Source of the DNA: Rhynochetos jubatus
Lineage: Eukaryota; Chordata; Aves; Eurypygiformes; Rhynochetidae
Assembly (NCBI GenBank): GCA_027574665.1
Contig: CM050665.1
Coordinates: 1,674,001 to 1,738,000, forward strand
DNA length: 64,000 nt
Reading direction: 5' to 3'
Position numbers and translations under genes: made by a program. The notes under the pieces were generated by a model, which was not told the DNA's origin, did no database searches, and was given only the letters and a program-made list of their open reading frames with translations. This document shows, one piece after another, positions 47,001 to 48,546 of this stretch. How positions within the stretch are numbered: the first letter of the stretch is position 1; each line of letters begins with the position of its first letter.

Positions 47001-48546
47001 GGCCCAGGCAGGGGCCGGCAGCAGGCAGGCAGCCCCACTGGGGGAGCCTGGACAGCGGGCACACAATCGGCACCTCCTCACCACGACCCCACAGACTAGG
47101 AAGGAGCAGGGGGCATCTGGCAGGAGGATCCGAGCCCAAGGTGTTCGGGGCCTGGCAGAAGCACTCCACACCCCCCAGCACCCAGCTGTTGTGGCCTGGC
47201 AGGCCCCCCCTCCAGCAGGCCCAGCACCTCCTGGCCATGGGGACAGCAGGTTTATGCCACCCAGCTGGGCTGCGGGCCCTCACGCCAGCTCCTGCCCACC
47301 CCCACAGCTCCTGCCCACCCGCACCCCCAGCTCCTGCCCACACCCACCCGCACCCACAGCTGGGGTCTGCTGGGGGCTCTCCCCCCCTTCCCATCCTATG
47401 GCTGCAGAGGGATTGATCCCTATGCCCCCTCCCTGCTGCACCTCGCCATCCTCCCACCCACCTACCCCCTATGCCCTGTGTCCTTCATGCTGCACCCTGT
47501 CCTCCCCACCCTGCTGCACCCTGGCACTGACCCCAGCCCAGCCTGGTTCCATGACCCCTGTGCCTCCAGACCTGCCCCAGCTGCAGCAGGTGGATGAGGC
47601 CCCTCAGCACCCCCATCCCGACCCCCTGCCCCCATCTCCCTGTACCTCCAGACCTGCCCCAGCTGCAGCAGGCAGATGAGGCCCCTCAGCACCCCCATCC
47701 AGACACCCAGCACCCCCATCCCGACCCCCTGCCCCCACATCCCCGTACCTCCAGACCTGCCCCAGCTGCAGCAGGCAGATGAGGCCCCTCTGCACCCCCA
47801 CCCAGACACCCAGCACCCCCATCCCGACCCCCTGCCCCCACCTCTCCGTACCTCCAGACCTGCCCCAGCTGCAGCAGGCGGATGAGGCCCCTCAGCACCC
47901 CCATCCCGACCCCCTGCCCCCACATCCCCGTACCTCCAGACCTGCCCCAGCTGCAGCAGGCAGGTGAGGCCCCTCAGCACCCCCATCCCGAAGCCCAGCA
48001 CCCCCATCCCGACCCCCTGCCCCCACCTCCCTGTACCTCCAGACCTCCCCAGCTGCAGCAGGCGGATGAGGCCCCTCAGCACCCCCATCCCGACCCCCTG
48101 CCCCCACCGCCCCGTACCTCCAGACCTGCCCCAGCTGCAGCAGGTGGATGAGGCCCTGCAGCAGCCAGACGCAGAGGCGGCAGCAGCCGCGGGGGCCGCG
48201 GGCGCTGTCCTTGGTGCTGCCGGCGCTGTCCTTGGTGCTGACGGCGAAGTCGTACACGAACCACCTGAAGCTGAGCAGCTGCACCACCAGCGAGGGCAGC
48301 AGCACGAAGAGCAGCGTCAGCCCGAACCACCACCGCTGCCCCCGCACGTAGTAATGGGCCGCCAGCCACAGGTCCGAGGCACCGTCCGCGAAGCAGACCA
48401 GGAGGGCGCAGAGCACCCAACAGCCGTCCCGCAGCCGGTACCGCCGCGCCGGGGGGGGCCGCTCCCCCCGCCCGCCTCCCTCCGCCGCTCTCCGGGCTCT
48501 CCAGCCTCACGGCCGGGCCGCCGCCGCCGTCCGACTTCGCGGCCAT
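41040..48546 (-). CDS. XKR7: XKR7, XK-related protein 7
   Basis: Three exons: 48118-48546, 42089-42288, 41040-41992, about 526 residues (human 579). Exon 1 begins [10 protein letters not shown] and encodes the first membrane spans ([38 protein letters not shown]) and [20 protein letters not shown]. Exon 2 starts at [14 protein letters not shown]. Exon 3 carries the remaining spans, the family block [32 protein letters not shown], and the C-terminus LEYETTV, which has a class I PDZ-ligand form (T-T-V). XKR proteins are multi-pass plasma-membrane proteins; XKR4, 8 and 9 are caspase-activated scramblases, but scrambling by XKR7 is not established. Exon 1 has one base too many for its frame, apparently in the G8 run at 48451-48458, so the MAAKSDG start and the XK domain are out of frame as assembled; a homopolymer error is likelier than a broken gene. 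The choice of XKR7 over XKR4 or XKR6 rests on the neighbours CCM2L and PDRG1. Confidence 0.93.
44130..44560. promoter_or_regulatory. Candidate intronic enhancer, AT-rich island
   Basis: Inside GC-rich XKR7 intron 1 this stretch contains a TAATTAG homeodomain core (44154-44160) and TTGTTATGCA (44389-44398), ten contiguous bases shared with the SOX-POU composite consensus CATTGTTATGCAAAT. No coding frame explains it. Enhancer function is inference from motifs and composition only. Confidence 0.3.
44905..45000. promoter_or_regulatory. Candidate intronic enhancer with TAATCC sites
   Basis: An AT-rich island of under 100 bp with TAATCC at 44931-44936 and 44981-44986, plus TTAATTT and TTTAAATAATGA. 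TAATCC is the preferred site of K50 homeodomain proteins (OTX, CRX, PITX, GSC). The same motif recurs at 46250-46255 and upstream of XKR7 near 51.4 kb. Confidence 0.28.
47555..48140. repeat. Minisatellite made of XKR7 exon 1 end plus 5' splice site
   Basis: Tandem units of 81-82 or 103 bp; the longer ones carry an internal duplication of about 21 bp. On the minus strand each unit contains the last coding bases of XKR7 exon 1 (CTGCTGCAGCTGGGGCAGG then TCTGGAG) followed by the intron start GTAC and then GGGGGCAGGGGGTCGGGATG. Donor-like GTAC copies occur at 48114 (the real junction), 48033, 47930, 47848, 47745 and 47642; a seventh copy near 47560 reads GCAC. The copy at 48033 lacks two bases in the exon-like part. 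Confidence 0.93.

Follow-up and report, generated by a model that had tools for sequence, protein, structure and literature searches.

Minisatellite-like duplications of intron-exon boundaries were described in amphioxus globin genes and named "mirages" (PMC3087553). In BflGb6, one haplotype was reported to carry 6 mirage units and another 3, with identities of 81-100% and with concerted evolution inside the cluster, from which the boundary units are excluded; AG/GT was held by many mirage repeats, though not by all (PMC3087553). Length polymorphism between alleles or somatic instability is a further feature of mirages. According to the same authors, reverse transcription-PCR suggests that amphioxus mirages do not interfere with regular splicing, and intron gain through such repeats was proposed (PMC3087553). 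The Adh and troponin C (TnC) mirages were stated to generate no aberrant mRNAs (PMC3902484). Here we analyzed a 64,000-nucleotide stretch of Rhynochetos jubatus DNA (GCA_027574665.1, contig CM050665.1, positions 1,674,001 to 1,738,000; hereafter the window, to which all coordinates refer), in which the border between exon 1 and intron 1 of XKR7 is repeated in tandem. The array is real, rare, in part common to other birds and most likely passive.

Like the amphioxus mirages of Adh3, BflGb6/BflGb9, PGBD5 and troponin C, the XKR7 array consists of tandem units across an exon-intron border (PMC3087553, PMC3902484). In BflGb9, too, it is the 3' end of an exon at its boundary that has been duplicated, and the retention of AG/GT by many but not all units recurs in XKR7, where 6 of 7 copies keep GT (PMC3087553). 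Unlike the amphioxus cases, the array lies in the first intron of a bird gene and has G-rich units of 81-103 bases. Minisatellites at exon-intron borders were also reported for human paralogs in segmental duplications, together with alternative splicing or new introns (PMC2812944); those genes are recent primate-specific duplicates, whereas our protein search found relatives of XKR7 throughout vertebrates. Since human border repeats were already described, the array belongs to a known kind and not to a new one (PMC2812944). In CBS 844ins68, part of an exon-intron junction is likewise duplicated in a vertebrate gene and one of the two sites is preferred; by the title of a work cited there, that case differs in concerning a 3' splice site (PMC2630376). 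Tandem duplication of AGGT has been reported as a route to intron gain, and the XKR7 unit also holds AGGT and an acceptor-like AG (PMC4974935); unlike in that system, there was no evidence of a new intron being used in the array. No report of a bird mirage was found among the matches listed in the open-licence literature, which is a weak negative.

The array extends from 48155 to 47564 on the minus strand and comprises six full units (c1 to c6) and a terminal core (c7). In each full unit, 38 bases from the end of XKR7 exon 1 are followed by 44-65 bases of intron 1. Units c1 (48074..48155), c2 (47972..48073), c3 (47890..47971), c4 (47787..47889), c5 (47684..47786) and c6 (47602..47683) are 82, 102, 82, 103, 103 and 82 bases long, starting at 48155, 48073, 47971, 47889, 47786 and 47683, and the 38-base core c7 (47564..47601) starts at 47601; the longer units carry an additional 21-base piece. 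Donor-to-donor spacings from c1 to c7 are 81, 103, 82, 103, 103 and 82. Tandem Repeats Finder recovered the array at periods of 82, 103 and 185 (a dimer), among others, with a score of up to 805. When a 26-base part of the core was scanned with up to 6 mismatches and without gaps, it matched only six array copies and nowhere else in the window; c2 was missed owing to an absent base in its core (CTGGGG-AGG). A chance origin of the array was rejected. Because of this deficit LLQLGQVW is unreadable in c2, and the peptide, which the initial annotation had placed in all repeats, is present exactly in 6 of the 7 copies. The broader description given by the initial annotation, a rare minisatellite that spans an exon-intron border and multiplies a donor, was borne out. 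In the 90 bases beyond c7, homology to the unit spacer did not exceed that of shuffled sequences (207 of 500 reached it). The window also contains a 654-base N gap at 49980-50633, 1.8 kb from the array.

Exon 1 of XKR7 ends at 48118 (...CTGGGGCAGGTCTGGAG), and intron 1 opens with GTACGG at 48117. The coding part of exon 1 (48118..48546, ATG at 48546, conserved frame open from 48506 to the donor), exon 2 (42089..42288, acceptor CATACAG|GTACC) and exon 3 (41040..41992, through to the stop), all on the minus strand, join into one open XKR protein, which confirms the 48118|48117 border by frame. This protein is matched by PF09815 (E=4.5e-125), and a full-length XKR7-like match was found; the gene identity and junction proposed initially are thus upheld. 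The best-listed relative was Numenius arquata XKR7, with 98% identity, and the first eleven listed rows were all birds. Between 48546 and 48506, the ATG frame of exon 1 does not match the conserved downstream frame, and this change within a C/G-rich run is either a sequencing error or a real frameshift. At 48201-48246, exon 1 contains a 21-base duplication coding for STKDSAG-like repeats, a segment that varies in length among bird XKR7 proteins.

The copies differ in the message that each donor is predicted to yield. Splicing at c1, the authentic exon 1 end (GAG|GTACGG, first intron base 48117), gives the normal XKR7 message. Use of c2 (GAG|GTACAG, 48036) adds 81 bases, that is, 27 further residues in frame, and c3 (GAG|GTACGG, 47933; +184) shifts the frame toward a stop inside exon 3. 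For c4 (GAG|GTACGG, 47851; +266), c5 (GAG|GTACGG, 47748; +369), c6 (GAG|GTACAG, 47645; +472) and c7 (first base 47563, donor lost as GAG|GCACAG), the first in-frame stop on read-through of exon 1 (47892..47894, minus strand) is reached ahead of the donor. The frames of the added lengths rotate as 0, 1, 2, 0, 1, 2, and c2 is the one extra copy that stays in frame and meets no stop; the earlier expectation that distal donors would add a G/R-rich peptide therefore holds for c2 but fails for c3, which shifts frame, and for c4-c7, which run into the stop at 47894. It is only because its core is one base short that c2 is in frame, and were this deficit to stem from a sequence error, the use of c2 would shift the frame as well. 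GTAC is kept at 6 of the 7 junctions and is GCAC in c7, so that five extra copies (c2-c6) do retain it, as first noted; the picture of about six near-identical donors was nevertheless too strong, since +5 G is kept only in c1, c3, c4 and c5.

The analysis of variation over c1-c6 revealed variable columns at 4 of 38 exon-derived and 6 of 42 intron-derived positions, and GTAC would remain unchanged by chance with P=0.58. As the two kinds of column show similar variability, there is no special preservation of GTAC. A histidine (H165) that is invariant in 44 aligned XKR7 or XKR7-like proteins is retained in c1 and c7 and replaced by Arg, Cys, Arg, Cys and Cys in c2 to c6, respectively. On this alignment, the interior copies show no apparent coding constraint, and no sign of selection keeping the donors or the peptide was seen, with few changes and low power. 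The core of c7 is identical to that of c1 (38/38) and matches the interior copies at 35-37 of 38 positions, which may recall BflGb6, where units are alike inside and the boundary units stand apart (PMC3087553), although the differences, in one assembly, are few.

For other birds, the analysis covered database proteins, many of them predicted. The XKR7 protein search returned 916 homologues (heads of 90% clusters), and the best 120 of the 916 were examined, comprising 21 birds by name and 99 others. The exon 1 end and exon 2 were both present in 11 bird and 69 other rows; ten bird and 30 other rows without a core match were dropped. A second border copy was observed in 4 of the 11 bird models, namely, owl (P0002), takahe (P0004), starling (P0006) and peafowl (P0007, scored through its other-frame reading, PAAAGAG), whereas a single copy stood at the junction in the other 7 bird rows and in all 69 others (Fisher P=2e-4 for rows that are not phylogenetically independent). 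The owl insert has an 80% match in a different reading frame of the window, and with the owl spacer peptide alone the array spacers were the first five window matches (E 0.001-0.002) and six of the first seven. The second border copy in bird XKR7 models and the resemblance of the owl spacer to that of the window are new here and, taken together, indicate that the border duplication is probably old and not an assembly accident.

The read-through peptide of exon 1 matched 169 proteins, of which the best 120 were examined, with P0121, P0122, P0123 and P0124 as the four bird-like top rows. In P0121 and P0123, the sequence runs beyond the donor and enters a second copy (best E 1.4e-5 and 1.5e-8). 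This copy is degenerate in P0121 and fits c7 best, including its AQG (lost donor), which suggests that c7 is an old boundary copy and that array growth took place between it and c1. The peafowl- and duck-like XKR7 open reading frames P0122 and P0124 terminate exactly at QVWR, from which we infer a GTGA donor in fowl and ducks, compared with GTAC in the window. A protein search with the 284-amino-acid open frame through the array scored 7993 candidates, none of them below E 0.001. Five bird XKR7 records (P0009, P0036, P0043, P0056 and P0087) have no proper exon 1 end or carry unrelated sequence before exon 2, and the GC-rich first exon of XKR7 seems to be often mis-modelled. Predicted structures of the owl protein and of the single-copy XKR7 P0001 had mean predicted local distance difference test values of 53.7 and 53.5, too poor to use; they give only a hint that the XKR7 junction may lie inside one helix, split by the owl insert.

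Considering these data, we regard the array as probably a passive, concertedly evolving minisatellite of the mirage type, with splicing mostly from c1, a reading favoured because the interior copies have lost the invariant histidine and drift in frame. In birds, the border between exon 1 and intron 1 of XKR7 would have been duplicated long ago and would have expanded here to seven copies through slippage or unequal exchange, and concerted evolution would keep the units alike, as their similarity and the 185-base dimer period suggest. Most XKR7 mRNA would be spliced from c1, with the downstream copies as decoy donors in a G-rich intron. Occasional use of c2 would insert 27 residues, use of c3 would produce a shifted frame ending in exon 3, and use of c4-c6 would create a premature stop with two exon junctions still to follow, for which nonsense-mediated decay is expected. 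The array could thus be explained without any function for the organism. Several observations weigh against this reading. With a position matrix, the donors scored 7.42 (GTACGG, four copies), 3.89 (GTACAG, two copies), -2.74 (GCACAG in c7) and 8.76 (exon 2 donor). Two donor-like GAG|GTGGGG sites in the spacers of c2 (48021..48029, minus strand, first intron base 48026) and c4 (first intron base 47841) slightly outscore c1 (7.67 vs 7.42) and pair better with U1 (-9.4 vs -6.0). Since c3, c4 and c5 equal c1 and the GTGGGG sites exceed it, c1 has no advantage in strength. The owl and starling models, both predicted, run to the donor of the second copy, with inserts of 31 and 33 residues, and a downstream donor may be real in these birds. 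Another peafowl record (P0010) is single-copy, in disagreement with P0007. None of the eight window matches shown for the starling spacer alone was the array, and over its first 20 residues the tail of P0121 had no match to it; homology of the spacers may therefore not extend to all birds.

The same donor scores bear on the idea that the downstream donors are used in earnest, so that near-equal 5' splice sites compete and copy number tunes XKR7 output or isoforms, which we consider unlikely. Between 60 bases before the donor and exon 2, a score no lower than that of c1 is reached by 13 of 310 GT sites, c1 itself included: the four GTACGG copies, the two GAG|GTGGGG sites and seven outside the array. 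The array is also denser in runs of four or more G (6.41 vs 1.41 per 100 nt in the rest of intron 1), and G-quadruplex-type motifs cover 281 of its 562 nt compared with 289 of 5266 elsewhere in the intron. Competition of this type can yield canonical and frame-shifted transcripts, as reported for DOK7 (PMC5585400), and would agree with the owl and starling models that end at the second copy. It is opposed by the rotating frame, the stop at 47894, the loss of +5 G in c2 and c6, a preservation of GTAC not beyond chance, and the mirages reported to leave splicing undisturbed (PMC3087553). An extension of this idea, in which a mirage retained across bird orders would act as a splice-site titration device, with copy number and rotating donor frames setting productive XKR7 splicing and the used donor moved downstream in owl and starling, lengthening the protein, appears distinctly improbable.

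Also improbable is an intron gain in progress, in which the copies would be mini-exons or new introns and the normal message would be recovered by splicing between corresponding points of two copies. In most units, a 17-base stretch is preceded by CTGCAG and followed by GTAC; the acceptor-like CTGCAG has 12/18 pyrimidines in every copy, and all of the 6 downstream copies except c5 have yTnA some 21 bases ahead of the AG. However, exon 1 contains two CTGCAG sites, including that of c1, and both also have 12/18 pyrimidines, so that this value is not special, and the exon 2 acceptor has 14/18. The implied introns between neighbouring copies would measure 65-86 bases, near the minimum length of vertebrate introns. 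In our own reading, the takahe and peafowl models look joined between copies, but takahe could represent a plain in-exon duplication, and repeats can mislead gene models; intron gain was itself proposed as an outcome of mirages (PMC3087553). We consider it very improbable that an assembly or sequencing artefact inflated the array. Base quality is uncertain because of the nearby N gap and the frame change in the GC-rich run of exon 1, and the one-base deficit of c2 may be an error, but the units bear their own variants and occur in two lengths, and second border copies are present in the proteins of other birds.

Should birds differ in copy number, XKR7 would offer a naturally occurring set of consecutive, identical 5' splice sites and, with it, a direct test of how the spliceosome chooses among equal donors. 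The XKR7 records of owl, starling, takahe and peafowl may carry array-derived inserts, as annotation errors or as real isoforms. Further repeats were observed elsewhere in the window. A 36-base minisatellite lies in an open frame at 34492-34813, in an exon-like stretch that we take to be a CCM2L exon; a segment that looks conserved follows it closely, together with a donor-like GT. About 70 copies of GGAT are present at 39824-40101, and at 9122-9837 a GC-rich unit of 54 bases, with several open frames on the plus strand and partly open on the minus strand, is repeated in 13 copies.
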